From the NCBI GenBank assembly GCA_903813345.2, contig CAIIXF020000006.1, positions 34,263,524-34,327,523 of the forward strand: a stretch of 64,000 nt of DNA, in the 5' to 3' direction. The notes below the pieces were generated by a model that saw only the letters and a program-made list of their open reading frames with translations, was not told the DNA's origin and did no database searches. This document shows, one piece after another, positions 1 through 49,113 of this stretch (positions within the stretch are counted from its first letter, which is position 1; the number at the start of each line of letters is the position of its first letter). The position numbers and the translations under genes are program-made. Source of the DNA: Owenia fusiformis (taxonomy: Eukaryota > Annelida > Polychaeta > Sabellida > Oweniidae).

Positions 1-75
1 GAATTAGAGGTATAAGATGTTCAATTTCTATTTTATAAAAAACTCCTTTTATTTTAAAAAACTTTTTACCTTTTT

Positions 76-2457: not shown

Positions 2458-5400
2458 AGAACTCAAAACGTGTGAATTATCACCACCATAGAAGTAAATC
2501 TGAGGAAAGAACAATAGCAGAAGCCTCTCCTTCTGACTTTGATGCTGTTATTGCCCAGGCAAGGCTTACAGAAGAGTCCAATCTTGGAATCCAGACAGGT
2601 TCCCCAGTACATTTGCCAAAAAAGGTAAGGATCAATGGCCAGGTATTAACAGATGTGGAAAAATCAATTATTGATGGGGTAATTAGTGATTCATTTAGTA
2701 GATTGAGAATAAGGTATGATCAAATCAAGATCAATATTTAATTTAATTTTTATTTGATTTTATTTGAAAGGGACAAAAGGATGCGACACGTTTGACTGGA
2801 ATTTTAATATTAAAAATACATGTAGTTCAAATTTCTTATTACATTTTAGACATCTGATGAGCAAATCAATAAAAATAACCGCAACCCCAGAAAGATAACC
2901 AGCCTCCCCGACCAGACTTACAGTAGTAGTGCTCCATTAGATTCTGATGGCTTTAAGACATACATGGACGACAACCAGATCATTGAGCTGGCTCGCATGG
3001 ACCTCATGAAGATATTAGGCCTTGATGTATGTATTTTTGCTTAACATGTTTTCTTAGAATGTAATTAGATAATACAGTAATATAAGTGTTCCACCTCCTT
3101 GGACCACCCTGTAGAAAGAAGGTATTTGAAAATAAGATGGGTCAGGATCTAACCAGTTTTTTTTAGAATTCAATCAGATTATACTAGTTGAATCAAAAAT
3201 GTTCCACCTTTTTGGATATAAACTCCTTAATTTATAACAAAAAATTGACTTTTGCACGCTGGTGAAGTTGCACCTTTTTTGATGGATCTCACACCTTAGA
3301 CCTCACACCTCATTTTCCCAATTCAGATCAAAATTTGTCAAAATATGCAAATTTTTCATGATTTTTCTCATTTTCAAGTGGGAGCAAATGGATTTTCAGG
3401 TGGGTGCAAGCCTATTTTTAAAAATCTCAGGTGGATGCTGCGCCCTCTTGCTTTAATGCTGGGGGAGATCTCATAATAAATATGTTAAGAATAGATATGG
3501 ATTGACTGTTTTTTAGTTGTTTATAGTCACATTCTGGCATCTTGTTGGCAATGTATTTCAGTTAAGAATAAAACTACTCGGATTGAACAAAACATCCAGA
3601 AAATCAAAACAAATTTCAATGTCAATACGCCTTTTTAGCTCATATGGTGTGGGCTATTGTAATCCCTCACTTGTCTGTCCATCTGTCTGTCTGTCTATTA
3701 TTATTCCATCCAATGATGCTGCTTTGCAGCTCTACATGGAGACATTTATTTGTATTGAAAATAAAATTCTTTAAATGTGAAGTAGGACAGAAAGTAGAGA
3801 TGGTTGTACTTTTTACTGAAAGCAGTTATTTTCAGGGAAAACTTATTATATGTGTTATGCTTATGTATACTAGTGACATAGTTAGATACATGTTGTTTTA
3901 TTTACTTCAGTCCAATGGTATTGGAAAAAGATTCTACAGCTACAGGGTGATCCAGTAGTATGACACTAATGTAAAATAAGAAATAAAATAAATAGAATTT
4001 TGCTTTTTTTCAGGATGAAGAGTTATTGGAGGGCAAGCTTACGTTGAAGTATCTCCGCTCTGGAAGGGCACTCACCAAGCAGGGAGACCAAGATGCTAGC
4101 CTTGTGTTTGTTGTTACAGGCACCCTTCAAGTCCTACAACAGGTGGTTGGCAATGAAAATGAAGAGGTATTTAACAACTGTTTGTAAAACCTATGTAAGT
4201 GGAGCAATTTTTGTACTTGGAGGTGTTTTCCCTATACGTTTATTTTCATGAGTTCATGAGTAACAGAACCTGAAAGTGTTTCACTTACAGAGGTGTTCCA
4301 ATTTACAGGTTTACTATACTATATTATCAGCTATATTTGGATACATTTTAAAAATTTGGAAAAATACTGTTTGAAAAGCTACACAAGAAAAAGGGATGTT
4401 TTAAACGTGAGGATTGATGATTAGGATGTCCTTTATAGTACAGACTCTTTGTAAGGATATTCCTGGTAACAAATAATACCCCTGATAAAAATACTAAGAT
4501 TCAAGGACTTGTATGTTCCTCTTGATTTATCCACACATAATTTTGTTTTATAGAGGACACTGTTCATAGCTCACCCTGGAGAGATGGTTGGATCATTGGC
4601 TGTACTAACAGGAGAACCCTCCTTCTTCACTACAAGGGCTAGAACTGATGTAAGGATCATCCTGATATCTAAAAATGACTTTTATGGGTAAGTTTGGTTT
4701 GATCTTTGGCATTACTAACAGGAGAACCCTCCTTCTTCACTACAAGGGCTAGAACTGATGTAAGGATCATCCTGATATCTAAAAATGACTTTTATGGGTA
4801 AGTTTGGTTGGATCTTTGGCTGTACTAACAGGAGAACCCTCCTTCTTCACTACAAGGGCTAGAACTGATGTAAGGATCATCCTGATATCTAAGAATGACT
4901 TTTATGGGTAAGTTTGGTTGGATCATTGGCTGTACTAACAGGAGAACCCTCCTTCTTCACTACAAGGGCTAGAACTGATGTAAGGATCATCCTGATATCT
5001 AAAAATGACTTTTATGGGTAAGTTTGGTTGGATCTTTGGCTGTACTAACAGGAGAACCCTCCTTCTTCACTACAAGGGCTAGAACTGATGTAAGGATCAT
5101 CCTGATATCTAAGAATGACTTTTATGGGTAAGTTTGGTTGGATCATTGGCTGTACTAACAGGAGAACCCTCCTTCTTCACTACAAGGGCTAGAACTGATG
5201 CAAGGATCATCCTGATATCTAAGAATGACTTTTATGGGTAAGTTTGGTTGGATCATTGGCTGTACTAACAGGAGAACCCTCCTTCTTCACTACAAGGGCT
5301 AGAACTGATGTAAGGATCATCCTGATATCTAAGAATGACTTTTATGGGTAAGTTTGGTTGGATCTTTGGCTGTTATTACAGGAGAACCATTCTTCACTAC

Positions 5401-8400
5401 AAGAGCTAGAACTGATGCAAGAATCCTCCTGATATCTAAGAATGACTTTTATGGGTAAGTTTGGTTGGATCTTTGGCTGTTATTACAGGAGAACCTTCCT
5501 TCTTCACTACAAGGGCTAGAACTGATGTAAGGATCATCCTGATATCTAAGAATGACTTTTATGGGTAAGTTTGGTTTGATCTTTGGCATTACTAACAGGA
5601 GAACCCTCCTTCTTCACTACAAGGGCTAGAACTGATGCAAGGATCATCCTGATATCTAAGAATGACTTTTATGGGTAAGTTTGGTTGGATTTTTGGCTTT
5701 ACTAACAGGAGAACCCTCCTTCTTCACTACAAGGGCTAGAACTGATGTAAGGATCATCCTGATATCTAAAAATGACTTTTATGGGTAAGTTTGGTTTGAT
5801 CTTTGGCATTACTAACAGGAGAACCATTCTTCACTACAAGAGCTAGAACTGATGCAAGAATCATCCTGATATCTAAGAATGACTTTTATGGGTAAGTTTG
5901 GTTGGATCTTTGGCTGTACTAACAGGAGAACCTTCCTTCTTCACTACAAGGGCTAGAACTGATGCAAGAATCCTCCTGATATCTAAGAATGACTTTTATG
6001 GGTAAGTTTGGTTGGATTTTTGGCTTTACTTACAGGAGAACCTTCCTTCTTCACTACAAGGGCTAGAACTGATGCAAGGATCATCCTGATATCTAAGAAT
6101 GACTTTTATGGGTAAGTTTGGTTGGATCTTTGGCTGTACTAACAGGAGAACCTTCCTTCTTCACTACAAGGGCTAGAACTGATGTAAGGATCATCCTGAT
6201 ATCTAAAAATGACTTTTATGGGTAAGTTTGGTTTGATCTTTGGCATTACTAACAGGAGAACCATTCTTCACTACAAGAGCTAGAACTGATGCAAGAATCA
6301 TCCTGATATCTAAGAATGACTTTTATGGGTAAGTTTGGTTGGATCTTTGGCTGTACTAACAGGAGAACCTTCCTTCTTCTCTACAAGGGCTAGAACTGAT
6401 GCAAGAATCCTCCTGATATCTAAGAATGACTTTTATGGGTAAGTTTGGTTGGATTTTTGGCTTTACTTACAGGAGAACCTTCCTTCTTCACTACAAGGGC
6501 TAGAACTGATGCAAGGATCATCCTGATATCTAAGAATGACTTTTATGGGTAAGTTTGGTTGGATCTTTGGCTGTACTAACAGGAGAACCTTCCTTCTTCA
6601 CTACAAGGGCTAGAACTGATGCAAGGATCATCCTGATATCTAAGAATGACTTTTATGGGTAAGTTTGGTTGGATCTTTGGCTGTTATTACAGGAGAACCT
6701 TCCTTCTTCACTACAAGGGCTAGAACTGATGCAAGGATCATCCTGATATCTAAGAATGACTTTTATGGGTGAGTTGTAGAAATTTATGAGTACACAGATG
6801 GGATCAGAATCCTTACCTAGTTAAGGAGATGATGGGAGTCTAGGGAAATGGCAACAGGTGGCATAGAGAGACACTGGGATCCTGAATATGGGGACAAGTG
6901 TGACTTTAAACATACACAGGTACGAGATATACAGGCATGTAGTCAGTGTGTGGTATTTCGATTATTGCAATGGTGGTCAAATGAACCAGGTTCGTGGGTT
7001 CAACAGGTGGTATGTGTGAATATGAAATGGTCATATTTGACCACCAAGTTTTAACAATAGTTCACCCAGTGAGCTAACAATGGCCACTCCATTTGAAAAT
7101 CAACAGCAGCTCAATAGATACTATAAGATAATAACACATTGAGAATAAGAGAATAACACATTGAGAATAAGAGAATAACACATTGAGAATAAGAGAATAA
7201 CACATTGAGAATAAGAGAATAACACATTGAGAATAAGAGAATAACACATTGAGAATAAGAGAATAACACATTGAGAATAAGAGAATAACACATTGAGAAT
7301 AACACATTGGCTTTATGCTTATAAAACGTGATGTATTAGATTATATATGCACGTGTACAATATGTGGAGCCACATTGAACTTTATAGAATATTGAATTCC
7401 ATCAGTCTACTTTTTGTTTACTCCTGAACCTTTTTGTCACAAATCTACATACAAACAATATGACAATCTTCAAAATGAAGAAGATAACTGATATAACTAA
7501 GGTCAGGAAAGCATAGATGTCTATCATCCAGAGTTGCCAGAAAGGCATCTCAACTGAACTTGGTCTCAAATGTTCTCCTCCAAACATTACTACATGGTCT
7601 AATGCCTCGAAAGCTCTCTTTCTTGGGCTCCTCCTTGATCTGAATATCTTCGAAGCCTTTTGGATGTTATCTCTGTATGAACTGTTAGCTAGAATTTCCT
7701 TGATGTTATGTAAAAGCTGGTCAGCAGTTAAATCGTGTACATTCATCGCAATCCCATATCCTTTACTCTGCATCCTGATGGCATTGTGTGGTTGGTCGCC
7801 AAACAGAGGTAATCCAAGCATGGGGACTCCATTGTTCAGTGCCTCGTACTGGCCATTACTACCACAATGAGTAATAAATAGTTTCACCTTAGGATGGGCC
7901 AGCAGATCATTTTGAGGAATCCATTTCAATAGTTTGATTCGAGATGGTAAATCAATAAAATTGCCGTTATATTTCCATATCACACTTTGATTTACTGCTT
8001 TGAAAACAAATATGAGTTTAGCTATTATTTCTGGGTCCAAAACTTCTGTTGATTTTGATCCAAATGAAACTAATATGACATCATTGTTAGCTTTTGTTAG
8101 AAAGTCTTCAAGTTCTGTTGGTAAAGGTTTGTTTGGCATAATGGACAAGCCTCCAACTTGGATGGCATTCTCCATCAATGGGACATGGAATTCAAGCAAG
8201 TTATCTTGGTTGATCAACCAGAGAAGGGTTTTGCGCTTTAGATCATGGTATATTGCGGGTCGATTTGGAGCATATTTCTTTATAAGTGCATTTCCCTCAG
8301 CTTCATTAAAATTGTATTTTGTAGTTATTTGCTCTAGGATGATAATTAGAAAAAAGTTTGATAAACGTTTTAAGAATGTCATTCTATCTGTGTATAATGA

Positions 8401-11400
8401 AGCTGTACTTGGCACAAATGATGGCAGAGCTGGGGTACCCATCAAATTGTTTAGATTATTAGATGCGAGAGAACAGAATGGGATATCTAGGATATACGGC
8501 ACAATATAAAGACTATCTAAGAATGGAGATCCATCCACTACAGCTACGTCATACTTCATCTTTTTGAGTGGTTGAAACACACTCCCATCATCTAGTAAAT
8601 CAGCTACAGCTTCATTGACTATATCAATTAAAGCTTTCATGATTGGGAACATTTCCAAAACGCTTTTTCCTTTTGCCTGTATCTGTCCCAACTCTGTAAG
8701 AAGTCCTGTTAAATCCTCGTCTGTCCTTTTGGTAGGGATTATATGTGTTGTCATACTGGTTCCTTTGCTCCCTTTTGGTACTCTGTTACGTAATGGTGGG
8801 GTTACTACTATCCCAACCTTGAAGTAGAAGTAGATAATTCCTCCATATAAAACATGAAGGCCATTGAAGGGCTCACATTTTCAGTTTTAACATATATTGT
8901 AATCAGTTTAATAATTGCTTAAATATCATGGACTACATACTCGTATCTTTAGTCAGTTTAATATTTTCACAGTCATTTAACCTTCTTTTCTTTTATGAAA
9001 AAATGTGTCATTTTGACAATAGGGAATAGGCTAATTGAAAATTTTGGGACATCAGTTGAATATTAAAAGTAGCTGCTTCATATAGACATGATAGCATAAT
9101 AAAATGAAATTTTACTGAAATTTAAAAAGTCTGAATTCATTAGAATCAAAAAAGGAGTTCTCTATTTCAATTGTTTTACAAGATAGCCTTAAAACAAAGA
9201 ATCATCCCAAAACATAAATTCAGAACTTCTAGACTTTTTATCAACCATTCAAAATTGAGGCTAAATAATACAGTCATACACCAATTAAAATAGATAATAT
9301 TTCTCACCTGATGTCCTTGTTCCAGTAGCTCCTCCCCCAGAGGAGTGAAATAGAGCAGGTGACTGGCTATATGTGGGGACGGAATTCTACATTTCGCGAT
9401 TCGCTCTTTGAATCAGAACGTTCGCAAATATGTACTGAAAAAGCACTCAAAAAGGACAAAATTTGATTGGTCAATATTTTCTCACTATGCATTTCGCGTA
9501 GCTATTTGCGTGACCCGGAAGTTCAAAATCAAATTAATTACGCAATTTTGTTTTTACACCCGCACGCTAAATAAAACAATGACAACATCGGAAGTATTCT
9601 TCTTTGTCATTGCTTTAATAGTCAGTATACGGAGTTTAATCAATAAAAGATTGTACAATTAACAACAAAATTCGGAAACGAGTACTATAGCTTTGCTTTC
9701 GGACCACTGAACAGAGTGACCTAGATAATAGCGACGCTTCTTCTTTGGTCTACTGCTCAGTTATTTGTTGGTTTTCAACGTAATTCTATGATGTAATTTG
9801 AAGATGAATACTTTTATTCAGTTGTTGCATCGATGTTGCAGTTTGTAGTGCGGTAAGATTGGCATGAAGGTATTGAAAGTCGAATGGAATTGTTTTTTCC
9901 AATATGGCGACTAGTCAACTGATCATGTGACCTTCTCTTCCGGAATATTTTCTCACTTTTCAATCATCGTTTTCACCACGCTATGAATCAATACAATGAA
10001 AAAAATAGCTGTTATATTAAGATTAATAAGAGATCAATCGTTTATAATAATTTTTTCTGTACCCTCGTACGGGGATATGAACGAATATATCGTTTGAAAA
10101 ATAGGTGTGAAAATCCCCATGTTAAACCTATGAGGGAAAACAAGGAAGTATAAATTTGTTCCTCCGCGAACTGCATCATGGGAAATATTTTGACCTTATA
10201 AGGAAAGATTTTCGCGTCTCCTCTTTTGAAGAGGGAACAGCGATTTCGACAATTAGAAGTACCTTCATGGCCCGAACTGAGGGTACAATAAGCAGTATTA
10301 GTAATAATAGCCTCACTGCCATTATTACTTCCTCTGGATTCCTCAGTTTTGGTGTTAATACACTGTTGATTATCAATATTCTTCATAGAGTTTTACTTCT
10401 CACTTTTACTGCTTTGTGAACCTTAGTGTCGCTGCATGTATATTTAAATTACATGTTATTTATATAGCCTCTTATGTTTCATGTGACCTCCAAAGTGAAT
10501 GTCATAAATATAAGTTTACTTATAATTGTCACTTTATAGGCCATTGTACTATTTGATTATTTTCTAAATATTCTGTGTCACTATAACCCTATTCATGTAT
10601 GTAAAACACAGAAATGGAACACTGAGAAAGCACAAAGGACAATATTTGAAAGACAAAATAATTTAGCCCATAAAAACACTATGAACTACAATACAAGGAA
10701 TAGCACACATGATCTGGGGTAATGGGTATGCTTATCCAAAATGTCGTAAATAGATCTGGTTTCACCTTTGATTTAACCAAATTCCAAAGGTATTTGTAAG
10801 GTATACTTTCTATGTTATGATATGCTATTTGAAACCTTGGAGTGGTTTTCTTATCTATATGAGAAATGATATTACCGTTTTACATATGATATACGTAGTA
10901 CAAGAGTTTGCCAGAGTTTAACGTTTCAAAACGTTGGTGGAACACAACTAAATGCTATAACATGCATTTCCCCATATAAATGAACTGTCTTTCAGAGAAA
11001 AATTTGATTTTTGGCCATGTTTTGTTATCATGCCATCATACTCAAGTATTTTCTCTGTCAGTCACAAAATCAAAAAATCTCACCTGTTGAATATGCAATT
11101 TATATAATGTCAAAAATTGTCATTTTGGTTTTGACGGATGAAGGGAGGTCAAAAAGGTCACATTTTTCAAATAAAGTGCAACTTCATCACATCAGATCAT
11201 GTACACTTTTTCATTGATGTACTTACCACTAAATCCAACCACTGGTAATGCTGATGTAATTACAATAATGGGCTATATTCTTGATTTTAAAGTGCCATCT
11301 TTTAGGACCATTTTGATATTGGAGCTTACAACATTTTAAGTAAGTTTCATAATGCTTTCTCACCAACTTCCACCCCATATAATAAAAATTTGAAATTGTT

Positions 11401-14400
11401 ATTTGCATCAGAAGATTTCAACATTTGCTTGAACAAAATACCCTCTCCCCCTCCCCTTTGAACTGTTGACAATTAGACTTTATCCCTCATCAAATGTGCA
11501 ATTTTGGACATACCATTGGCTGTACTATCATACTGTACTGTACTGTACTGTACCGCACCATACCATATCTTGCTGTGTTGTGCTTTGCTGTACTTTATTG
11601 TACTTTACTGTACTGTACTTTATTGTACTGTAATGTAATATAATGTACTAGTTTAGTCTATGTTATATGCAGGAACATGTTTGCAATTCCAGTATAATGC
11701 AGGAGAGGCCAAGGATTGTCCTGAATGTTGCAGAGACAGTGTTAAGAAGAATGTCTCCATTTGTGCGTCAAATAGATTTTGCACTGGATTGGACCCAGAT
11801 GGAGGCTGGGAGAGCCCTCTATAGGTAAACCTACAAACTAAATCTAGAATCAGCCATTGTGTCATCTGTTTTGATTTGATAATTTGATCCACATTTTAAA
11901 ATAAAGTAAAATCTGTGGAACCCCTTTGGTACCACTTAACATTATTTAGGGGTGTCAGACGCACCATGCTATATTTGCATTTGACCTTATACCTTTATTA
12001 GTCAGTAAAATACATTGTACACTGTATTTTGTTTATGCTCTGGACTAAAATTGTTCAATAAATGTAGTGTGCCCCATGCCCTTAAAACATACTACTGACC
12101 TTATCTTATGAGTTGTACATATTTTTACTTTTTAAATTAACATACATTCTAGGCAAGGGGACCATTCAGATTCCATTTACATTGTGCTGAATGGAAGATT
12201 GAGATCTGTGGTGTCCCTTCTCAGTGGGAAGAAAGAACTCATAGGGGAATATGGTAGAGGAGAACTTGTAGGTCTGGTAGAGATATTAACCCAGACTGAT
12301 AGATCTACTACAGTAATGGCAGTCAGGTATGCAACATTTGTATAGATGGCATACCTAAAATGTCCGTCTGCTTAACTTATTTTACTCAATTTCTCTCCAA
12401 AATTTGAATGAAGTATTTGATTTTCTGTTTTTTTTATATAATTTCGTGTTTTGGCTACTTGCCTGTTTATTCCATTTCTTGCTGTTTTTGGCTTTTAATA
12501 CATAACGAACATGAATGAATGTTTTCTCATCAGATGTTCAAAATGTTCATCCATCTTATTTAATTTTTCATCTGGTTTTGGCAAATAACACTAACACAAA
12601 TTAAAAAAATATTTATTGATAAAACAGTGATTTGTTATAAAAAATTAATTGAAACAAGACAAAATTAAAAACAATTAATTGAAATGATCAATTAACATTC
12701 ATATTCCAGAGACACAGAGCTTGCCATGTTGCCAGGAGAATTGCTCAATCTCATCAAGCGTAAATATCCACAAATTGTTACACGTCTCATCCACTTATTG
12801 GGACAAAGGATTTTGGGAAGCCTTCAGGACAGAAATGTATCATCGGCTTTATCAGGCAAGATGATGATCAGTAGTTGTTGAAGTTGATTTTGTTATATTG
12901 AGGGAATGCATATTTGAGGATTTTGTTTTTAAAGATACTGATTAACAAGTGTATTTAATCAAATTGATCTATGTGTACATCTTGAAAAAAAGTGTCACAT
13001 TTTTTATCTTGTTTTCAGAACATCCAAATGTTGATCTGCGACCTGCAGTGGCTAATCTTGCCACAGTGGCAATACTAGGAGCCTCTGATGACGTTCCAAC
13101 ATCCAACTTCACGCTAGAGTTACAGTATGCTCTCAATACTATAGGCAAGTACATGTATAGAACTTCTCTACTCTGGGTATGGTTTGGTAGGACTTGTATG
13201 GAAATAAATCCTGTGCTTTTCTACATTTCTAAAATTTATGTAACATGGTCAATTTTTTCAATTTCGAGGTTATTTTTATTAAATAGTTTTTAGGATGACA
13301 CAAGTGTTGTGATATCATAGATAAATAATTGATACATTAAATTTTATTGTAGGCCCTACCCTAAGACTCACTAGTGAGATTATACAAAACAGACTGGGAG
13401 TTAATGCTCTTGACACGTAAGTTATTTTGTGCCAATTAAATTAACAGCAATGGTTGCCATGCCTATTATATTCTCTTCAATGTTTCTTGCGTTTCTATAC
13501 AGGCGTAGAGCTATATTTTTAGTCGTACAATGTACGCCACCACAGGAACACAAGTTGGGCAAAGCAAAAAAAGAGTGTTCAAGCTGGTCTGGGGGTCCTC
13601 CCCCCAGAAAATTTTGAAGTTTGGTTGTATTTGGAGTTTACTTGCAACCATCTGGTACACCTGTGCGTACAAGTCGTACCGGTCGCTACGCCTTTGACAG
13701 TCTACAGTGTTTTCTTTAATTTCATAAAATCTTAATTGTTTTCCAATTTCATACAATCTGAAGTGTTCCCAATTTAATAAATTTGTTCTCTAGTGTCAAT
13801 GAGTATAGACTGCTTAGCTGGCTTGGTCAACAGGAGGATATACATAGGATAGTCCTGTACCAGTGTGACCAGAGAATGACAGCATGGACCCAACGATGCA
13901 TCAGACAGGCTGATTGTATACTCATAGTTGGACGTAGTGGGAATGAGCCAAAAGAAAGTCCAGTAAGTTCTTACTTATTGATCTGGAATATTACCTCATG
14001 TTTGTGCTATATCAATGATGGGATATTCAATATGAGATATTAGGGAAATGATTTTAAGAAACGTTTTGAATCTAAAATCTAAATGTATTTTTCTTTGAAC
14101 ATAATGAGAAAAAATGTATATTTACAAGCGGACAACTCTCTTTTGTTGACTCATGCCAAGCTACAATGTCCACGTCGCCAATATGTTATCATACACTCCC
14201 AGAACCATAATGATAATTACTACTGGTATACTGTCAATTATAATATTGCACAGTGGTCCTTTGATTGCTTATTTTTGCTTACATTTTAATGTCTCAGTGT
14301 GTAGGAGCACTTTATCAATGATGTTTGTATTACAGCTGGAAAAACAAGTAGAGAATATGGCAGTTAGGGCTCAGAAGGAACTTGTTCTACTCCACAAAGA

Positions 14401-26255: not shown

Positions 26256-26955
26256 TCAACATTGAATGGCAATCAACATTGAATCAGCACATGATTCAAC
26301 ACTGAATGGCAATTCAGCATTTAATCAGAACAGAATTCAACATTGAATGGCAATTCAACATTGAATAAGCACAGAATTCAACACTGAATGGCAATTCAGC
26401 ATTTAATCAGAACAGAATTCAACACTGAATGGCAATTCAACATTGAATAAGCACAGAATTCAACACTGAATGGCAAATCAACATTGGATCAGCACATGAT
26501 TCAACACTGAATGGCAATTCAGCATTTAATCAGAATAGAATTCAACACTGAATGGCAATTCAACATTGAATAAGCACAGAATTCAACACTGAATGGCAAT
26601 TCAGCATTTAATCAGAACAGAATTCAACATTGAATGGCTATTCAACATTGAATAAGCACAGAATTCAACACTGAATGGCTATTCAACATTGAATCAGCAC
26701 AGAATTCAACACTGAATGGCAATTCAGCATCTAATCAGAACAGAATTCAACATTGAATGGCTATTCAACATTGAATCAGCACAGAATTCAACACTGAATG
26801 GCAATTCAGCATTTACTCAGAACAGAATTCAACATTGAATGGCTATTCAGCATTTAATCAGAACAGAATTCAACATTGAATGGCTATTCAGCATTTAATC
26901 AGAATAGAATTCAACATTGAATGGCTATTCAGCATTTTATCAGAATAGAATTCAA
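26256..26955. repeat. 41-bp satellite, about 17 copies
   Basis: The unit has the form GAATTCAACACTGAATGGCA followed by ATTCAACATTGAATAAGCACA (or ATTCAGCATTTAATCAGAACA). The second half is a diverged echo of the first. Two unit types alternate over much of the array, implying higher-order duplication. Non-coding, intergenic. Confidence 0.92.
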
Positions 26956-28477
26956 GACTGTCATCACTATATAATAGTGTCAAACATACACAGTATTATT
27001 GAATGATTTAAAGTGATGCACTTTTTCAACACATATTCACATATATCTTAAAATTTAATCAGAATTAATTATTTCCATTTAAAGTGATGCACTTTCTTAT
27101 TAATAAGTACATGTAGTCTATACATTGATTGAATTGTACCAAATTGAATTTTAATACTGGTATTACTGTAAAAAGTGATGCACTTCTTCAACTCATATTC
27201 ACATGATATGGTATTTCTTAAAATTAATCATGATGAATTATTCCAAAATAAAGTGATGCACTTTTTGATTAATACGTTTACTACAATACATTTAATGTAA
27301 ATACTTACAAGTTAATATGTACATACTGTCAAATGGAGTATCTATGTAAGTGGAACACCTTGCAGGTGGACTAGTTTTTTAAGTCCTGGGACTTATTGAC
27401 TTTGTTTTAAAATGAACCTTTATAAATGGAAAACATGAGTGGAACACTTCTGTTAGTGGACCACCTTGCAAGTGGAACAGTTTATAACTACTATGATCCA
27501 CTGACTTTATATATTAAAATGGACTTATGTAAGTGGAACATCACTATTAATATACAAGGCATTCCACTTGCACAGGTTTTACTCATGTTATTTACTGTAA
27601 ATATTCTAGAAAATGTACTCATAATATTAAGTGTTATTATTAAAAGTGATGCACTTTGATAAAGCATAAGCTAAATAATATATATTTTCAGTAAACTAAT
27701 TTACACTTCTTTCTTATTTACAACTGCAGAACATAAATCTAAGGGCTGCCCACAACATTTTCACAACTTCAAATGTCCTCGCCATTATAATCAATTTTGA
27801 GGAAATTCCCTGACTTTTTGTCAGTTTTCCAGACTTAGGCACCCTGTATATATCTAGCAGGTTCTCTCAGGCACTGCTCCAGTACACATTTGCCCAAGCT
27901 ACAGCATTTTGCTGCTCTGACCTCCAACATAAACAACATATGGTTCAGTGGCCAAGTACTATTAGTAAACAAATTATAGGTGCCACTGTTTTATTTAGGC
28001 TAGGGGTGACCAAGTTGCATTTAGTCTCTATCCCAGTGCCACATTAAGGACATGCATCTACTCATTAGCTTTTTGGTGAGGGGCAAATCAGGAGATCTTC
28101 AAGGGGTTAAATTTTTGTTTTATTATGATATGGATCTACCCTATGTCCTTCTTTTAATCATTAGTTCCACTAAGGCAAGAGGAATTTGCCCAGTGGTCGA
28201 GAAGACTATTAACTATTAATGACTATGGATGATTGTCAGATATACAGAGATATATGGGTAACCATGGTTACCTGTTGACCCAATGATACAATAATTAGTT
28301 ACCATAGTTATCTGTCCTAAGGGCCACCTGAGCTACCTCGTCTCCCATTTTATCATAGAAGCTCTACTTTATGCAAATCTTGCCCCAATGTTCCATACAG
28401 CTCCCTCTATCTTCATTTGCTAGACATATTTATGGCTATAACCACATTTGTAAGGGTGACCTACAATGTAGCAGAAT
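26956..28477. other. intergenic DNA with AAGTGATGCACTT motifs and a degenerate GTGGAACA element
   Basis: The imperfect palindrome AAGTGATGCACTT recurs near 27011, 27080, 27175, 27250 and 27644, part of a duplicated segment of about 165 bp. At about 27340-27580, GTAAGTGGAACA-like words repeat and resemble the element at 56170-56484. TTTATT at 28119-28124 would be an AATAAA signal for the minus-strand Roquin transcript, but this is unproven. No gene seen. Confidence 0.5.
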
Positions 28478-28801
28478 CTCTATTCATGGCTCTAATGTTG
28501 CATGTAGCCTCTATTTCTGGCCCTTGATGTTGCATGTAGCCTCTATTCCCGGCCCTAATGTTGAATGTAGCCTCTATTCCTGGCCCTAATAATGCATGTA
28601 GCCTCTATTCCTGGCCCTAATGTTGCATGAAGCCTCTATTCATGGCCCTAATGTTGCATGTAGCCTCCATTCCTGGCCCTAATGTTGCATGTAGCCTCCA
28701 TTCCTGGCCCTAATGTTGCATGTAGCCTCCATTCCTGGCCCTAATGTTGCATATAGCCTCTATTCCTGGCCCTAATGTTGCATGTAGCCTCTATTCCTGG
28801 C
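28478..28801 (-). repeat. 31-bp array derived from the last codons and stop of Roquin
   Basis: On the minus strand the Roquin coding end (GCCAGGAATAGAGGCTACAT, then GCAACATTAG) is followed directly by about ten copies of the same 31-bp unit. Each copy carries the stop-like TAG. The first copy is the genuine C-terminus (A-R-N-R-G-Y-M-Q-H-stop). The rest form the start of the 3' UTR. The period is not a multiple of three, so loss of the stop would not give a clean peptide repeat. Confidence 0.93.
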
Positions 28802-40900: not shown

Positions 40901-43900
40901 AAGATCAGTGACATGTTAGCAATTGGTGAAGTTATTTAAGATTTAAAGGGCAAAAATGGGGGAACAATATTTAAATTCTCCCAATTTAATAAAAATGGTA
41001 ACCATTCTTATAGACAAATGATTGCATTATTGTAAAAATCGCTAGTTTTCCTCAAATTAAGTATATTCTTGGGGTATTTTTAGAAAATAGACATGACATT
41101 GAATGATTTGAACCCAAAATAATCTAAAATTGAAACAATTTCCATTAAGAAGGTGCACAAAAGTAATTGCTATATCTGATTCTGCCTTACTGAACAAGTA
41201 AAATGTAAAAAAATTAGCCCCAAGATTGTTCTCAATAAATCTAATTATTCATAAATTAAATGTGAATGCAGTGGACTAAGTGTGCATAACAGAGAAGTAT
41301 TAACCTGTGCCATATGGTACATATACTGTACTTACACAGGTGTTTGAGCATGTGAGATATGATCAACATCACTCTCTGCACTTTCTCTTTTTAATCTGTC
41401 CTCAGATATTGACCTATCAGGAGTCTCCCTCTTGTTATATGTTGCGGCATCTGGTGGTCGAGGCCCCATGCGTCGACTCTTAGCACGGTACCTACGAGAT
41501 GAAGTATCAATATTATGTGGTCGAATAGTCCAGGGTTTCTTCCTTAATTTTAGAACTTTATTCCATAAAAACAGAGAAAATCAAAGATTCTCTAAAATTA
41601 CACTATCTGGTTCATACTTTATTATTTGTAAATATGGAAATATATAATTTCTGCATATCAAACACATTGGCATCTTTTTAATTTGGTGTTTTCCAAGGTG
41701 TCAAATGAACTGAAATGAATCTATAGATGCCATGCAAAGAAATTCTTAATTAACATTCACTGTATGACAAACAAAATTTGTACATGTACATGTACACACA
41801 ATAAAATATCAAAACTCAAATTCACATACTTTTCCAATTCCTCTTTGGAGTGTGCAAACGTACAAAGAGCTCCTCTTGGGCACATTGTCTTTGCCATATA
41901 GTCTCGGCAATAATTTGTTTTGTACTTTGCATTATGGGAAGAAGAAGGCTCATGACGTCTATTGTACGACAAAGTCTGCATGAAGGGGATTAGGCCTTGT
42001 ATAATTGTCTTGATTGCCCGCAGCACAAATGCAAGGTTCTCCCATGATGGAGAAGGAGATTCTGAAATGGAAACATCACAAAATATTTGAAAAACACTCT
42101 ACGTGCAATTTCTCATATTTCAATTTATTCTTCAAATGATACACACATAAGTAAATATAAACATAGAAGCCTGAAGTACTTGACAGGGCTAGGGTCAACA
42201 CTGGCTAGAAGCCTGAAGTACCAGGGCTAGGGTCAATATTGGCTTAGAAGGCTTACCAGGGCTAAGGTTAACAATGGCTAAAAGCCTGAAGAACTTGAAC
42301 GAGCTAGGGTCAATGTTGACTAGAAGCCTGAAGTACTTACCAGGACTAGGGTCAACACTGGCAAGAAGCCTGAAGTACCAGGGCTAGGGTCAATATTGGC
42401 TAGAAGCCTGAAGTACCAGGGCTAGGGTCAATATTGGCTAGAAGGGTTACCAGGGCTAGGGTTAACAATGGCTAAAAGCCTGAAGAACTTGAAAGAGCTG
42501 GGTCAATGTTGACTAGAAGCCTGAAGTACTTACCAAGCCTGGGGTAAATACTGGCAAGAAGCCTGAAGTACCAGGGCTAGGGTCAACACTGGCTAGAAGC
42601 CTGAAGAACTTGAATGAGCTTGGGTCAATGTTGACTAGAAGCCTGAAGTACTTACCAGGGCTAGGGTCAACACTGGCTAGAAGCCTGAAGTACTCATGTA
42701 ATCGGGTCAAGTTTCCAGGGTCATTGGACCTCTGTAAAACTATCATCAGCTCATCAACACTTTGGTTGAATGACTCTGGATTCTGAAGCTGAAAATATAA
42801 CATTGAACATAAATGATATCTGTTCCTTGGTAGGAAGCATTTGCCAACTTGGCAATATATCATATTGAAAACAAGACTACTATCTCCCTTTATGATACTT
42901 GCAATCAAATATGTAAAAGGAAAAATTGAAGAATAAAATAAGAAGATTTATCAAATAATCCAGGAAATCATTCTGATTACTGTGGTCTGAAACCTACTTT
43001 ATCAACAATAGACTGCATATGTGACTTGTGTATGGCATCCCCATAGAGCAATGAAGACCATTGGTCAGGGGCAATCCTCAACCCTGCCTCTGTCGCGATC
43101 TGCACAATCTGAGCATCATGCTCTCGTCGTAAACTGTCATATATTCGGAACTCTTCCTTTAGCTCCATCAGCGAGGACTCTTCGTTCCTTTTTGTGACCT
43201 GAAATAGCATAGTAATGAACATTTAGGAAAATACAAGTATTGTAATCCGTCAGAAAGTATTTATTTATTTCAGTGCAACAAAACAACAAATTCATTGAAG
43301 CAAGATGTTTTTCGAAGTGTGACAACTTTAACCGTTTGTTAGCGATAATTCCTTGATAACAACATGTATGTTCTAATCCAATGCAAAAGGAGGATAACAA
43401 TCAGTTCCATGCCAAATTCTGATGCTGATAAATATAGGCAGCCATTGTATAATGGTTCATTTTGGCATCATCAAAATTACATAGTACAATGTTCTTATTT
43501 CCAATAATGATACAGTAAGGCTACATTTGTATTTTCAGGATCAAAACTCTGTTATGCATGAATAACTCAAGGTCAAAATTAGAAATGAGATATGTTATTT
43601 TAGTAAAAATGTCTCTTGTTGATTGGGCATTCATATTAAAAGAGTAGAATTTTAGGCTTTAAATAATCTTAGAATCTTAGGCTTTAAATAATTGGCAGTG
43701 AGGAACATATAAATGTGTATGACCAGTTTTTGTTTCCATCTCAAAATAAATGTATGCTTCCACTGGAAAAAATGACAACCATGATTAATTTTTAACTGAG
43801 AAAGTTGAATGGCAAGATAGCAATAATAGTTGAATTATGAAACAAAATGTATGCAATCTAGCCTTTGGCTTTCAGAGACTATATGATTACTAAAAGTTAT

Positions 43901-46900
43901 CATGATCACTGTAAAAATGATACCATGCACCTTTAGGGTTTCCGGATCTTTCATACCAAGAATATTACCCAATCTTTTATCTGAAGAAATCCAATACACC
44001 AAACTCTTGTTGATTCATCCTCAGATTGCAGGAAAGAGCCACTCCCAAACAATCACTTACCTTGAAACATGAAGCTCTGTATAGCAGCTGAACAACATGT
44101 CCTATGGCCGTCTTCGAGGCCTGTGGGTATTGAACCTCCATTTTCTGAACAACAAACTGGACAAGGACTTTCCTGGAGAGAGGGGAGCCATCCTCTAGTG
44201 CCAGTAGTATCAGTTTGAGTACTTCTTCTTGCATTGCTGCAATATATATTTGAAATTTATTGCAATGATATACATTATCATGGAATATGTACACTTGGCA
44301 TCTCTCCTTACATTAAAATCTTTGGCACAGCACCTCTAATTGAACAGCAACATTTTTCAATGTTGAATTAATGTTGATGACTGATGAGGATTGACTTAAC
44401 CTTTTTCAAGCTTAAATCTACCATAATATTTAGTCATTTTATGGAAATGGGTTCAGGAGTATATATTATGTATTTTGACACCAGGAAAGCGTATGATACT
44501 GTATGGTTAAATGGGTTATTCCATAGGATATATAGTCATGTTGGCATTAAAGGAAAATGTTGGAGAATTTTAAGGAATTTGTATTCCTCATGTCATGATG
44601 TTGTTCGAATTAATGGCAAATTTTCAGACGGGGTTCATGTCTAGACAAGGTATTCGGCAGGGAGGAAAGTCATCTTTGTTAATGTATCTGTACTTCATTG
44701 ACCCTTTGTTAGATAAGCTGAACAAAAATGGGTGTAAAATGTATGATGTAACAATAGGTGCTCTAGGATATGCTGATGATTTAGTGGCCCTTGGACTCCA
44801 CAGAATAAGTTTACAAACATCGATAGATGTTGCATATAGATTCTCCAGATGCTGGAGATTTGATTTTAACATAAAGAAATGTGCTATCATGATTCTTAAT
44901 AATACTTGTAGAGGAGTAGGGAACCCTGTATTTTATCTAGGAAATAATAGCATAAATATTGTTAACTCTTACAAACATGTTGGGGTGACATTAAATACAG
45001 ATGTAACTAGGAAAACTGATACTGTAAATAAGAAGATCAGTGAGGGAAGAAGGTCATTTTTTGCCCTCTGTGGAGTGAGATGTGAAAAGAGTATTTTAAA
45101 TCCCCTTGTTTTATCAAAATTATTCTGGTCAGTTGCAGTCCCAAAAATGCTCTATGGCTGTGAGGTGTTGTATTTTAAACAAGCTGAGCTTGATTTGTTA
45201 AATGATGCACAAAGGCAAATAGCCAAAAGAATTCAGAAATTACCCATGAATACACCAGATATTGCTAGTTTGGGTTGTTTGGGATGGTTAGAACTCAGCG
45301 CTTATATAGATCTTCGGATTGTACTTCTTTAGGTCAATTGTAATGCTAAATCCAAGTTCAATCTGCAGAAAACTGTTTTTCCTGAGAATGCATGCAATGA
45401 AAGATAATATAACGGGAGTAATTATGAACAGGAGTATTGTATATAACATGTTACAAACCTTTATCAAGTATGAGTTGTATGATATGATAATTAATGTTAT
45501 TGAACAAAACATCATCCCTTCAAAGGAAATATGGAAAAAGAAATGTAAAACTAATGTATAAAGGCTTGTAATTGAAAGATGGAAAATACTCCTTATGTTA
45601 AGTCACAAACTAAATGTTTTTAGAATTGTATGTCCCAAGTTCAAAGTGAATGCTTGGTGGACTATGAGCAAAAGAGCACCTATAGTTAAAAATGAATGTT
45701 TCCAAATGGTGAGGCTACTAACTGGAGGATGTTCATTAGAGGTATTTACCCAAACCAATGTCATAAGGGAAGATAGGAAATGTACCCTTTGTAATGCTTG
45801 AGTTGGTGACTTAATACATTTTGTACAACAGTGCAATGTTTTTACTAGATTCAGATGTTTGTTTAGAAATACAATGAAGGCAAAACTTGTTAAACTAGAT
45901 TATGATAACTTTTACATGAGATCAGAAACTGAAAGGTTTTATATCATGATGGGATTACAAGAAATACCAGGTATAAATGATGAAATGGATTCCATAGCTG
46001 CAAAATGATATGCAATATGTATAACTATAGAAATGTGAAATTGAAGGAACTAAATTAATTTAAGTCAAGAGATACATGTACATGTAGCATTGTGTAAATA
46101 ATACTTTTTATTACTCTTTCCTTTGTAATGTAACTATGTTGTAAAAAAGAAAGTATTGTCACCAAATTGGTGGTTGAATAAATATACAAATACAAATAAT
46201 ATCAAGCAATTGATTCAATATTGATTTTTTCAAGTTTGATTCAATTATGATTTGTTCAAACTTGATTCCATGTTGAGGTTAGAGGAGAGTGTGGCAAGTT
46301 GAAAAGGATTAAGGGTACTTTAAAACCTACCTGGACCCAAAAACTGACAACCTCTGGTTCGTACAGCTGCCCATAAATTCGAAGACAGCTGCTGTGTGCT
46401 CTGATGCTGTAATATCAACTCTGTAGCTGCCCTCTCTCCTAGAGACCTCGCCCCCCTCATGATACGCACCCTGCCCTCCTCTTCAAACAATTGGCAGCCA
46501 ACCATTGAGACAAGTTTACGCATCATTGGTCGACTCAAATAGTTCTGTGTGGAGCTAGCTGATTCATCTGAAACAGACAAGAGTAATAGAGTATATTCAT
46601 GAACATTCATGAACACTGTACAAAGAATTACTGTATGTTATAAAGCAGACAAGAGTGTAAATAATTTATGAATATTCATGAACTGTACAAAGAACTACTG
46701 TATACTATGTTTTCATCCAAAGCAGACAAGATTGTATTCATGAACACTGTACAAAGAATTACTGTATGTTATAAAGCAGACAAGAGTGTAAATAATTTAT
46801 GAATATTCATGAACTGTACAAAGAACTACTGTATACTATGTTTTCATCCAAAGCAGACAAGATTGTATTCATGAACACTGTACAAAGAATTACTGTATGT

Positions 46901-49113
46901 TATAAAGCAGACAAGAGTGTAAATAATTTATGAATATTCATGAACTGTACAAAGAACTACTGTATACTATGTTTTCATCCAAAGCAGACAAGATTGTATT
47001 CATGAACACTGTACAAAGAATTACTGTATGTTATAAAGCAGACAAGAGTGTAAATAATTTATGAATATTCATGAACTGTACAAAGAACTACTGTATACTA
47101 TGTTTTCATCCAAAGCAGACAAGATTGTATTCATGAACATTGTACAAAGAATCACTGTATGTTATAAAGCAGACAAGAGTGTAAATAATTTATGAATATT
47201 CATGAACTGTACAAAGAACTACTGTATACTATGTTTTCATCCAAAGCAGACAAGATTGTATTCATGAACACTGTACAAAGAATTACTGTATGTTATAAAG
47301 CAGACAAGAGTGTAAATAATTTATGAATATTCATGAACTGTACAAAGAACTACTGTATACTATGTTTTCATCCAAAGCAGACAAGATTGTATTCATGAAC
47401 ATTGTACAAAGAATCACTGTATGTTATAAAGCAGACAAGAGTGTAAATAATTCATGAATATTCATGAACTGTACAAAGAACTACTGTATACTATGTTTTC
47501 ATCCGCAGCAGACAAGAGTGTATTCATGAACATTAATGAACATGTACAAACTAGAAAAACAGCAACTCCACGGAGTAGCAAATCCCACCGAACAAAACAT
47601 ATTTAGATTATTAGTGGCCATCTTGAAAATTCCTTCTTGAGCAGAGCTTGTTTGTCCCTAAGCATCAACATATGAAATGTAAACCATATCCATAAATTAA
47701 AATTTGAGTTATCAAAGATTACATTCTTTTTTACTAAAAACGGCAGCCATTTGAAATTCTGCAGTCATTTTGAAAATCTTTCTTGAACAGAGCTATAAGT
47801 GTCTCCAGGTATCAGCACATAAAATCTGAATTAAGAAAAATGGCAACCATTTTGAAATTCAGCTGCCATTTTGAAAATTCTTCCTCGAACAGAACTACTG
47901 TGTCCCTAGGCATTATCATATAAAATTTAAAACAAATCCGTTCGCAGGTATTAGAGTTATCAAAATTTTATGTTTTTTTACAAAAAATGGCCACCATTTT
48001 TAAATTCAGTGGCCATCTTGAAAATTCATTTTTGAACAAAGCAACTGTGTCCCTAGCCATCATCATATGGCCATCTTAAATATTTCTGTCGAACATAGCT
48101 ACTGTGTCCTTAACCATCATATAAAATTTGAACCAAATCCGTTCACTGGTATTTGAGTTATCAAAGATTACATATTTTTACGAAAAATGGCTGCCATTTT
48201 GAAATTAAGCGGCCATCTTGAAAATCTCTTTTTGTGCGAAACTCCTATGTCCCTAGGCATCAGCATATAAAATTTGAACCAAATCCGTCAACTTGTATTT
48301 CAGTTATAAACAATTACATTTTTTACAAAAAATGACGGCCATTTTGAATTGAGCAGCCATATTGAAAATTCCTTCTCGAGCAGAAGTCCTACACTCATAA
48401 CGCATAAGCCTTTAAAATTTGAACCAAATCTGTCAACCGGTATTGGAGTTATCGCCAGGCCACACGGACGGATGGAAGGCTTCTCTATATCCCCCTCGAA
48501 CTTCGTTCGGTGGGATAATTACTGTATGCTATGTTTTCAGGGGACCTGAGTAAAATGTCAGAGATTTCTGCCTCTATGAAATCTTTGATGTTCACCATCT
48601 CCAATTGATTCATACTCCCAGATTTGGGTCCAATGATTCAAAACACCTCTGATAACTAAATATTTTCTCTACAGTAGGTCATGTGGCTATTTTATTGTGG
48701 CATGATATTGGTTTCTTAAATCATTAGACAAACAAACAAATAAATAATCAAAACATTTACTCACTTGAACAGAGAGGTTTCAGGTAAATGGCAAGCTCTT
48801 CAAGGGATTTCCTCGATGCAGCATAATGTTTCTTATCCTTTCCTAAGCTTGCCTCCAGGGGGCAGGTCTGGTCTGTTGGCACAGGGACATCCACGAGCTG
48901 TAACAGTCCGTAGTTTACGGGGAACTTTGTGTATTGCTGCGATATCGCCACTTGATCGAAGGGGCATTTTGACTGATTCAGCTTCTCAAGGCATATCATA
49001 CAGAATGTATGTGAACAGCCAAGGCTTATTGGCCTATGTTTTTTCACATCGAATAACGTGTAACAGAGTGGACAACTCAGGAACTCTGTCCACTGTGGGG
49101 CCTGTATCGGCAT
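28772..49113 (-). CDS. Roquin (RING/ROQ/CCCH RNA-binding E3-type protein), complete coding sequence
   Basis: Roquin binds stem-loops in 3' UTRs and recruits mRNA decay and deadenylation machinery in cytoplasmic granules. Eighteen coding exons on the minus strand join in exact phase: 49113-48765, 46567-46331, 44236-44061, 43198-42998, 42788-42656, 42061-41830, 41491-41336, 40620-40451, 40215-39953, 36384-36322, 34459-34111, 33673-33492, 33261-33197, 32917-32776, 32519-32302, 32116-31957, 31582-31415, 28906-28772. The total is 3399 nt, or 1132 aa, close to vertebrate RC3H1. The start [11 protein letters not shown] equals the family start; an upstream in-frame GTG is not the start. Domains in order are RING, ROQ, one CCCH finger, then a long Pro/Gln-rich tail with a short coiled coil. 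Vertebrates have RC3H1 and RC3H2; invertebrates usually have one gene. The promoter and any 5' UTR exon are not placed. Confidence 0.96.
29515..31165. repeat. satellite of about 136-150 bp, 11 copies, rich in AGGTCA half-sites
   Basis: Each unit contains TGACCTTTTTTGACCT, then a short spacer, then AAGGTCATTGAAGGTCA, flanked by TCAAATCTAAAGTCAGATTT and TCAATTTGAAGCAAG. Read as AGGTCA half-sites, this is a direct repeat with 4-nt spacing, an everted pair with 5-nt spacing and a second direct repeat with 4-nt spacing. TGACCTTGA is also the inverse of TCAAGGTCA. Two units lack one TGACCT. The array lies in the last intron of Roquin. Confidence 0.93.
31211..31283. repeat. GCCGGACGCCAACC minisatellite
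   Basis: Short GC-rich units of the type CCGGACGCCAACCGC, with ACACC variants, repeat about five times. This is the only such GC-rich patch in the Roquin intron. A related GACGCCAGACGCCGAACGC occurs alone near 59924. Confidence 0.85.
31309..31335. other. perfect 11-bp-stem hairpin
   Basis: TATGTCACCAC and GTGGTGACATA flank a 5-nt loop (TTTTG). It lies between the GC-rich minisatellite and an A/AAAC-rich tract, 80 bp inside the intron from the Roquin donor at 31414. It may be the end of an inserted element; TGTCACCACCTAG also occurs near 29488 at the other side of the satellite. Confidence 0.7.
31415..41491 (-). CDS. Roquin C-terminal low-complexity exons
   Basis: Eleven exons encode a tail rich in Pro, Gln, Met, Ser and Val. 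Notable parts are [15 protein letters not shown] (exon 34459-34111, equivalent to the vertebrate RRRKEIMAQLEE-like helix), [20 protein letters not shown] (32917-32776, a conserved Roquin block) and a predicted coiled coil [18 protein letters not shown] (32116-31957). In vertebrates this tail contacts the deadenylase complex; that function is inferred. Exon 33673-33492 contains a short internal repeat, SRGNEPS...SRGNEPF. Confidence 0.92.
34568..34700. mobile_element. palindromic MITE with ATCGGCCGG arms
   Basis: The ends TAATGCCTTGGTCACATTTG and its near-perfect inverse (right end at 34700) enclose inner inverted blocks CATCGGCCGG and GAGTATTTTGTTC meeting in the centre. The whole 133 bp folds into one hairpin. 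It shares its core with the element at 1676-1806, is partly like the ends of the GC-rich element at 19299-19956, and lies in a Roquin intron. Confidence 0.85.
35194..35378. mobile_element. pogo-like MITE, 185 bp
   Basis: TA at both sides flanks inverted ends CAGTAAAACCTG(T) and CCAGGTTTTACTG. The CAGT(A/G)(A/G)AACC start with TA duplication is typical of pogo/Tc1-mariner derivatives. The interior has no open frame. It lies in a Roquin intron. Confidence 0.75.
36018..36300. repeat. 48-bp tandem repeat, about 6 copies
   Basis: The unit GGCTATAATGATACTTTGAC followed by GTGACCCCTTAAAGCTAAAATCAA repeats with a GTGACC/AAGACC alternation. It ends about 25 bp from the donor of the Roquin exon 36384-36322, on the intron side. 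It is not derived from that exon. Confidence 0.92.
37263..37482. mobile_element. TTAA-flanked MITE, copy 2
   Basis: TTAA flanks the ends CCCCTTGAATACCCAGAG and CTCTGGTATTGAAGAGG, closely matching the ends of the copy at 18185-18474. The 220-bp length differs because the interior is shorter. It lies in a Roquin intron. Confidence 0.78.
39240..39420 (-). mobile_element. tRNA-derived SINE-like fragment
   Basis: Read on the minus strand, TAGTATAAGCAGGAAGTCTG followed by GGTCTTGGGTTCAAACCCAG resembles the A and B boxes of a tRNA promoter with about normal spacing (roughly 39400 down to 39330). No acceptor stem or cloverleaf closes properly, so a functional tRNA gene is unlikely. It lies in a Roquin intron. 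Confidence 0.45.
41830..42061 (-). CDS. Roquin exon with CCCH zinc finger
   Basis: It encodes [20 protein letters not shown] and then the finger C417-x8-C426-x5-C432-x3-H436 ([21 protein letters not shown]) followed by SKEELEK. Spacing is canonical for RNA-binding CCCH fingers, and all four ligands are present. The acceptor side completes Glu 366 from the donor at 42656. Confidence 0.97.
42170..42655 (-). repeat. array of about 38-bp units derived from a Roquin exon 3' end plus donor
   Basis: On the minus strand the exon 42788-42656 ends TACTTCAGGCTTCTAGCCAG, then TGTTGACCCTAGCCCTG, before GTAAGT. Immediately downstream, this stretch is repeated about 12 times with variation. Several copies keep GGTAAGTACTTCAGG (donor plus next unit), some have GGTACTTC or GTTCTTC instead. 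Some units carry a TTGAACGAGCT-type variant tail, giving a higher-order pattern. All copies lie within the 0.6-kb intron before 42061. Confidence 0.92.
42656..46567 (-). CDS. Roquin ROQ-domain exons
   Basis: Exons 46567-46331, 44236-44061, 43198-42998 and 42788-42656 encode the RNA stem-loop-binding ROQ region. Conserved blocks are [126 protein letters not shown] and [20 protein letters not shown]. The identity with vertebrate Roquins is very high and leaves no doubt about the family. Confidence 0.97.
44430..46195 (+). pseudogene. 5'-truncated, frameshifted LINE (non-LTR retrotransposon) remnant
   Basis: On the plus strand, antisense in a Roquin intron, a reverse-transcriptase region is visible. 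Palm motif A is [15 protein letters not shown] near 44460; after a one-base frameshift near 44630 come [12 protein letters not shown] and the catalytic GYADDLV near 44770. Later pieces in other frames include a CTLCN...HFVQQC zinc-knuckle-like tail near 45780-45835, interrupted by a stop. The 3' end has AATAAA near 46177 and an ATACAAAT-rich tail. The endonuclease and 5' end are missing. It cannot encode active protein. I cannot assign a clade with confidence. Confidence 0.9.
46570..47535. repeat. 131-bp satellite abutting a Roquin splice acceptor, about 7 copies
   Basis: The period is 131 bp. Each unit consists of two related halves (GCAGACAAGAGTG... and GCAGACAAGATTG..., both with ATTCATGAAC and TGTACAAAGAA). 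It begins directly at the acceptor of Roquin exon 46567-46331. On the minus strand the acceptor CTTGTCTGTTTCAGATGAAT resembles the array CTTGTCTGCTTTGGATGAAA. Most units are nearly identical, implying recent expansion. Confidence 0.93.
47570..48515. mobile_element. repeat element with degenerate internal units of about 145 bp
   Basis: CCCACCGAAC (47584-47593) and GTTCGGTGGG (48505-48514) are short inverted ends. Between them, six or seven diverged units repeat the order TGGC(A/C)GCCATTTTGAA, CTTCTTGAACAGA, GTCCCTAGGCATCA and AAATCCGTTCA. A partial copy of the left end occurs near 50766 (AGCACATCCCATTGAACA). It has no open frame and lies in the Roquin first coding intron. Confidence 0.65.
48765..49113 (-). 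CDS. Roquin first coding exon with RING finger
   Basis: Starting at ATG 49113, it encodes [17 protein letters not shown] and a RING of Roquin type: C14, C17, C33, H35, C38, C41, C50 and D53, with Asp as last zinc ligand as in known Roquins. [10 protein letters not shown] and [13 protein letters not shown] follow. It ends TCAA before GTGAGT in phase 1. An acceptor-like ACTAAG lies about 25 bp upstream of the ATG, so a separate 5' UTR exon is likely. Confidence 0.97.

Follow-up and report, generated by a model that had tools for sequence, protein, structure and literature searches.

Tandem repeats that span exon-intron boundaries were named mirages in amphioxus, and the available text of the report describing them (PMC3087553) proposes that new introns can come from mirages, holds that they are possibly more general in cephalochordates, calls their mechanism unclear and cites Canestro et al. 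2002 on Adh3. The same text gives normal splicing by RT-PCR for amphioxus mirages, together with length or somatic variation. Minisatellites located at exon-intron boundaries have reportedly given rise to new introns in duplicated human genes (PMC2812944); there, as far as the accessible part of that paper describes them, variable repeats (on average 30-bp units, 4 copies) lie within exons of segmental-duplication paralogs and are partly spliced out as novel introns. The arrays described below likewise touch exon-intron boundaries and alter gene structure, but they start at an intact exon and continue into an intron already present, in conserved genes. Intronic minisatellites are also on record in an annelid, namely in the metallothionein genes of earthworms, to which our arrays are similar in host phylum and intronic position, although the available text on those genes (PMC12783039) describes no sharing of the repeat unit with an exon edge. 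Intronic minisatellites of C. elegans, in the portion of the report at hand (PMC4039745), have no bearing on exon-edge units. A literature search (minisatellite with mirage or exon-intron, Owenia repeats, intron gain by duplication), which covered few subscription journals, found no annelid report of exon-edge arrays.

Splice signals are reportedly also duplicated in tandem under a model attributed to Rogers, in which introns are gained by tandem genomic duplication of AG/GT sites, and mutually exclusive exons, such as those of muscle myosin heavy chain, are tandemly duplicated exons. With the former our arrays share their start, a tandem duplication of a segment that carries splice signals; the model, however, places the new intron within an exon, whereas here the copies lie in an existing intron. 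With the latter they share tandem copies of exon sequence within one gene, but mutually exclusive exons are copies of a whole exon, whereas mirage units usually hold one edge only and are near-identical.

The window, a stretch of 64,000 nucleotides from the annelid Owenia fusiformis, contains a gene that we take, from its protein sequence, to be PNPLA6, and one of its exons is followed by 19 further copies of the exon's own end (Table 1). The exon has an acceptor, ATAG/AGG, at 4554, a donor, TGG/GTAAGTT, after 4687 and an open frame between them. Units of the array measure 110 or 107 bp. Every unit terminates in GGGT(A/G)AGT, placing a donor at the end in 20/20; exon end and donor read GGGTAAGT in 19 of these and GGGTGAGT in the last unit, and the ACAG ahead of GAGAACC is likewise kept in all 20. 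The genuine acceptor is absent from the units, an in-frame TGA falls within the exon-derived part of 4/20, and the frame past the exon runs straight into TAA. In an array of mutually exclusive exons each copy would be a complete exon, having its own acceptor, open frame and donor, which the PNPLA6 units are not. The array is intronic, because the next PNPLA6 exon found begins only at 11693. The same intron holds, on the strand opposite to the gene, an uninterrupted open frame whose product resembles what we presume to be a UDP-glycosyltransferase.

The PNPLA6 units differ from one another, in an ordered fashion, by substitutions at scattered sites and by 3-bp deletions. The array has a higher-order period of 437 bp (four units), which suggests turnover by unequal exchange or slippage. 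Similarity to the exon falls with distance from it (Spearman -0.53, P=0.019, n=19, for copies that are not independent of one another). The copies near the exon are therefore the most exon-like, whereas in amphioxus, according to the available text, it is the units at cluster boundaries that escaped homogenisation. A search of one genome assembly with the exon returned 20 matches, all at this single locus.

Table 1. Positions of exons, arrays and neighbouring features, in the window and at sampled loci elsewhere in the Owenia assembly (gene names as presumed from protein sequence)
Feature	Sequence	Position	Strand	Remarks
Array	window	63-1070		48-bp units
PNPLA6 exon (cyclic-nucleotide-binding region)	window	4554..4687	+	last ~103 nt plus donor form array unit 1
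PNPLA6 array	window	4585..6775	+	20 units, extending into intron; TRF and direct reading
Open frame in PNPLA6 intron	window	7402-8880	-	492 aa
Next PNPLA6 exon found	window	11693..11824	+	by presumed homology
Array	window	26256-26960		41-bp units
Roquin coding-end array	window	28478..28801	-	10.4 copies of 31-bp units
Array between last Roquin exons	window	29556-30980		136-bp units
Array	window	36017-36294		48-bp units
Roquin exon-end array	window	42164..42693	-	12-13 units of ~38-42 bp, into intron
Roquin exon	window	42656..42788	-	source, by its 3' end and donor, of the array downstream
Open frame in Roquin intron	window	44381-45332	+	retrotransposon-like
Roquin exon adjoining 131-bp array	window	46331..46567	-
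131-bp array	window	46605..47532	-	7.1 copies; relates to intron end before acceptor 46567
Open frame	window	57854-59035	+	retrotransposon-like
Exon-derived array, scored non-edge	L009			kinase exon outside the sample list
Exon-derived array, scored non-edge	L022	189-295		second block of one mirage
Exon-derived array, scored non-edge	L146 with L157	L146 2274-2554 and L157 (C3:18451134-18452300)		unsampled proteasome exon; 83-bp units
Three edge-spanning arrays, CCT2-like gene	L123 and L124	C11:134265-143122		units 96, 53 and ~28 bp
Twelve tandem myosin-head exon matches	L158	C9:37986009-37994334
GSK3-like adjacent exon versions	L054	C10:2256896-2257205

A second gene in the window, presumably Roquin to judge from its protein sequence, carries three further arrays. 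In the array at the exon 42788-42656 the genuine donor sits in the first unit, and GTAAGT recurs in some of the others. The coding-end array likewise begins with gene sequence, its first unit comprising the final Roquin codons and the TAG stop, and has grown from the coding end rather than from a splice edge, for which the available text on amphioxus mirages offers no counterpart. The 131-bp array differs from both. Alignment to the Roquin acceptor region pairs 34 nt of intron with a score of 15 (reached by 0/500 shuffles) and halts before the CAG, so that this array shares no exon sequence and falls outside the definition of a mirage. The sequence-only reading, which had proposed four arrays grown from exon edges in these two genes, was largely right as an observation: coordinates and sharing held for three, whereas for the array at acceptor 46567, which it had called less clear, the likeness to the intron side stood and the sharing of exon sequence did not. 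Also within the Roquin gene, the array of 136-bp units is rich in the motif GACCTT / AAGGTC and its inverse. The two open frames on the forward strand, one within a Roquin intron, have features that appear to be reverse-transcriptase-like or related to non-LTR retrotransposons, with YADD in the first.

Two arrays of the window, those at the PNPLA6 exon and at the Roquin exon 42788-42656, fit the definition of mirages, as do the 19 edge-spanning arrays of the sample described below, two of which share only about 4 exon nt. As in amphioxus, so far as the accessible text goes (PMC3087553), the unit spans the exon-intron boundary, 5' and 3' boundaries are both affected, many units carry AG/GT signals and the authentic boundary remains next to its duplicates. 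Copy number reaches 20 in Owenia, against 3 and 6 in two haplotypes of one amphioxus globin gene. The host is an annelid and the name was coined in cephalochordates, a matter of context and not of definition. The Fox genes of the assembly fit Owenia fusiformis: 38 Fox matches fall on contigs C1, C3-C6 and C8-C11 and none on C2, C7 and C12, and if the twelve large contigs are taken as size-ranked chromosomes named in the order 1, 10, 11, 12, 2 ... 9, these are chromosomes 1, 2, 3, 5, 6, 7, 8, 11 and 12, as published for that species (PMC9539403); the foxQ2 tandems on 5 and 7 and the close foxC-foxL1 pairing on 11 described there recur in our data. GFP and COX1 families had no match in the assembly, from which a mitochondrial contig may be absent, and carry no weight as to the host. 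The claim that no named mechanism predicts such arrays accordingly fails as regards the name and stands as regards the mechanism.

Taken alone, the window is compatible with pure chance, that is, with a minisatellite-rich genome in which arrays start anywhere and the edge-crossing cases are merely noticed more. Against 35 exons set manually from open frames and splice motifs, some of their edges approximate, 3 of the 20 window arrays include a coding edge by sequence and uniform seeding expects 1.13 (P(>=3)=0.098), so that four cases in 64 kb, which the sequence-only reading took for a process rather than chance, are by themselves not beyond chance. Our script flagged 2 of the window arrays; for Roquin the top-scoring row, 42165-42606, falls short of the exon and the row 42164-42693 covers it. 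Of the 8 window arrays whose units are 45 bp or longer, 1 shares exon sequence. Three other arrays, with units of 48, 41 and 48 bp, overlap none of the 35 listed exons.

The enrichment test that had been proposed was run as a sample of 234 exons, chosen by protein family before the surrounding DNA was viewed: 69 kinase, 80 myosin, 56 CCT chaperonin and 29 proteasome exons, the last family being a later addition, made after the results of the first three. These are 234 of 325 matches in a 498-Mb assembly (mostly twelve contigs of 32-62 Mb), and the choice of rows preceded the fetching of DNA around that family's matches. For kinases, 94 of 144 matches entered and 69 (<400 bp) were kept, the omissions being near-full-length domain matches, some weak exons, tandem gene copies and small-contig duplicates. 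The myosin set comprises 80 of 92 matches, with 12 tandem Mhc exons omitted, the CCT set 56 of 60, with three long matches and one at a contig start omitted, and the proteasome set 29/29. With 600 bp on each side of the exons, the sampled DNA amounts to 268,327 bases at 156 loci, in which TRF at fixed thresholds (score at least 80, period at least 12) detected 55 arrays, 47 in the first three families and 8 in the proteasome set. Expectations were calculated by placing the founding unit uniformly at random, with wholly exonic placements excluded. For 149 exons, 131 acceptors and 120 donors were predicted; the match end served as the edge where a splice site was unpredicted, and in a few arrays (e.g. 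the L010 donor, L038 and L095) the splice site chosen by the script belonged to an adjacent copy. All 19 script-flagged overlaps with a sampled edge were checked by eye and accepted. A stricter count required at least 8 nt on each side of the edge and excluded L095 and L120 (at 3158), in which only about 4 exon nt are shared.

A sampled exon edge is spanned by 19 of the 55 arrays against 5.36 expected (P=1.1e-7), or by 17 against 4.50 under the stricter rule (P=1.5e-7), P values that are optimistic because certain edge arrays come from the same gene (one CCT2-like gene has three, L010 and L120 have two each). Three arrays that derive from exons were counted as non-edge (Table 1), and the excess is thus, if anything, understated. 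The edge-spanning arrays lie on 18 of the 234 exons (~8%), a frequency measured here and set against random seeding, unlike in the available text on amphioxus. Their units are 28-259 bp long, as compared with 10-160 bp in amphioxus mirages in that text, and in 19/19 the genuine edge, inspected by eye, is the exon-side terminal unit of an array that runs into the intron. By family the counts are 4/12 for kinases, 4/19 for myosins, 8/16 for CCT chaperonins and 3/8 for the proteasome, and the observed fraction exceeds the pooled per-array expectation in all four. The bulk of the excess comes from units of at least 45 bp, where 15/24 arrays span an edge against 4.11 expected; for units below 45 bp the figures are 4/31 against 1.26 (P=0.035), or 2 against 0.74 under the stricter rule (P=0.17). 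In the first three families, 11/30 arrays of at least 3 copies span an edge against 2.03 expected, as do 5/17 of those with fewer than 3 copies against 2.16 (P=0.046). Pure chance, which the proteasome sample alone would allow (3/8 against 1.13, P=0.084), and with which the ordinary minisatellite size of the arrays agrees, is unlikely in the face of 19/55 over 234 exons and four families. That no array wholly within a sampled exon was flagged also fits chance seeding, as selection would ensure it. The process that the sequence-only reading had in mind therefore finds its support in the sample rather than in the window.

An excess of this kind could also arise if the DNA near exon edges were prone to breakage or duplication through open chromatin, R-loops or splicing-coupled damage, so that arrays would cluster there. 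Acceptors and donors are both affected, as such a zone would have it, and in the window the Roquin arrays at 46605 and 28801 lie near an acceptor and at the coding end, respectively. Arrays that lie less than 30 bp from an exon but stop short of its edge are, however, not in excess among the sampled loci (4 against 3.64 expected), nor are those at 30-100 bp (4 against 7.66), which is evidence against splice junctions being generally prone to damage. Further out the counts are 5 against 9.59 at 100-200 bp, 17 against 16.97 at 200-400 bp and 6 against 11.78 beyond 400 bp; the observed distances were measured to whichever end of the complete array is closer to the exon, and the expectation is for a single unit, a bias that, if any, favours the near bins. 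With an observed-to-expected ratio of 3.5 for edge-crossing arrays and 1.1 within 30 bp, figures that also speak against pure chance, the excess is specific to arrays that cross the edge: the unit must contain exon sequence. A zone of fragile DNA is accordingly an improbable cause. Priming at splice junctions, understood as an effect of splice signals, fares no better, since the edges concerned are 11 acceptors and 8 donors, plus the Roquin stop codon.

Base composition gives no hint of a preference toward exons: at the first 137 loci, the G+C content of non-edge arrays is 34.2%, that of all sampled DNA 34.7% and that of exons 41.6%. At the same loci, edge and non-edge arrays have a median TRF match of 94.5% versus 89% and a median unit length of 57.5 versus 28 bp, and an all-against-all search found no obvious allelic pair of any edge array. 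Three of the edge-spanning arrays lie in one CCT2-like gene. At L146 and L157, some twelve or more units of 83 bp are copies of the acceptor and first part of the apparent last exon of a PSMB5-like gene, and the sequence ends short of the genuine exon. The names CCT2-, PKN-, PSMB5- and GSK3-like are those that we presume from the respective protein sequences.

The arrays are probably exon-edge minisatellites of the mirage kind, born and grown as minisatellites ordinarily are, with exon-containing seeds over-represented and the products tolerated via splicing. Such an array would begin with the tandem duplication of a short segment that happens to run from an exon's end into the beginning of the intron beside it. 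The extra copies would land in the intron, there to expand and contract by unequal exchange or slippage. The copy beside the rest of the exon would stay intact, and the spliceosome would pick the exon-proximal site and remove the array with the intron. As other copies have equally good sites, this choice would be made by position and exon definition; with an identical donor in 19/20 PNPLA6 units, position, and not donor strength, would have to decide. A tolerance of satellites that grow right beside coding sequence, which the sequence-only reading had offered as an example, may explain why arrays can exist, but not their excess at edges. The excess may instead mean that exon DNA seeds arrays more frequently than intron DNA does, or that its seeds last longer. 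On the first view duplication would strike exon DNA more often, and selection would let only the edge-crossing products survive; on the second, arrays at a conserved exon would persist and be re-homogenised.

A broader proposition, which we consider less likely than not, is that exons are permanent minisatellite seeds, several per cent of those in Owenia carrying an array anchored on one edge. Exon sequence would be preferentially duplicated and also kept from decay by selection on the gene, so that its arrays are homogenised and expanded anew whereas those within introns fade. If this were true, new introns, shifted splice sites and tandem alternative exons would have a constant source in such arrays, and would have it in two or more distant phyla.

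Could the copies instead be maintained for a regulatory or protein-diversifying function, as alternative exons or decoy splice sites under selection? The donor and the ACAG before GAGAACC, kept in every PNPLA6 unit, would suit such a role, as would boundary minisatellites that can yield alternative splicing in duplicated human genes, according to the available text of PMC2812944, and the presence elsewhere in the Owenia genome of apparent true alternative tandem exons (a myosin set of 12 copies and a GSK3-like pair). Most units, however, have only one genuine splice edge and are not whole exons, and at the usual copy identity of 90-97% most splice dinucleotides would be expected to stay intact without selection. 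Multiples of 3 are not favoured among unit lengths (5/16 edge units in the first three families, near the chance third), and the copies contain 2 stop-making changes as well as five distinct gaps of which 4 are not multiples of 3. Synonymous changes are somewhat over-represented among the pooled copies (34/89 against 23.1 expected, sd 4.1); the reference for the L010 donor in this test was the outer of two copies, which leaves its three differences unaffected. This mild excess, which could count in favour of function, fits, together with the greater likeness of exon-near copies in PNPLA6, some exchange between exon and array, a weakly supported reading, and constraint on the exon alone could explain it too. 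Little points to a coding role for the copies, and a selected function is a decidedly unlikely explanation of the arrays.

That an assembler inserted the repeated units is very improbable: short near-identical units are hard to assemble, the copy numbers given here are the assembly's own and one amphioxus mirage was misassembled in a draft genome, but the ordered substitutions and 3-bp deletions among PNPLA6 units, and two-copy cases at 92-97% identity (L010, L117, L136, L148), do not resemble simple duplication errors, and amphioxus clusters differing in length were either rebuilt out of trace reads or present in two haplotypes (both amphioxus points from the accessible text of PMC3087553).

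Exon-edge minisatellites of the mirage kind had previously come from a few amphioxus genes. Their presence in an annelid, their frequency and an excess specific to edge-crossing arrays are, as far as our literature search reaches, new, and at about 8% of sampled conserved exons and 3.5 times random seeding they become a measurable genome process. Owenia offers itself as an animal for direct tests of the origin of introns and alternative exons by tandem duplication of splice edges. In practical terms, genes that bear such arrays call for caution, since gene prediction and short-read assembly may put their splice sites or exons in the wrong place.

Two arrangements of whole exons were met among the sampled families. 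At L158, twelve tandem matches to one myosin-head exon (of the TYSGLFCVVINPYKRLPIY... type) stand beside a muscle-type myosin heavy chain; the copies are clearly diverged and open over a common core, and on these features the set looks like a large cluster of mutually exclusive exons. At L054, in the GSK3-like kinase gene, exon versions QLYMYQLLRSLAYIH... and QLYMYQLFRSLSYIH... lie adjacent to each other with an intron of ~50-60 nt between them, and are likely to be alternative exons.
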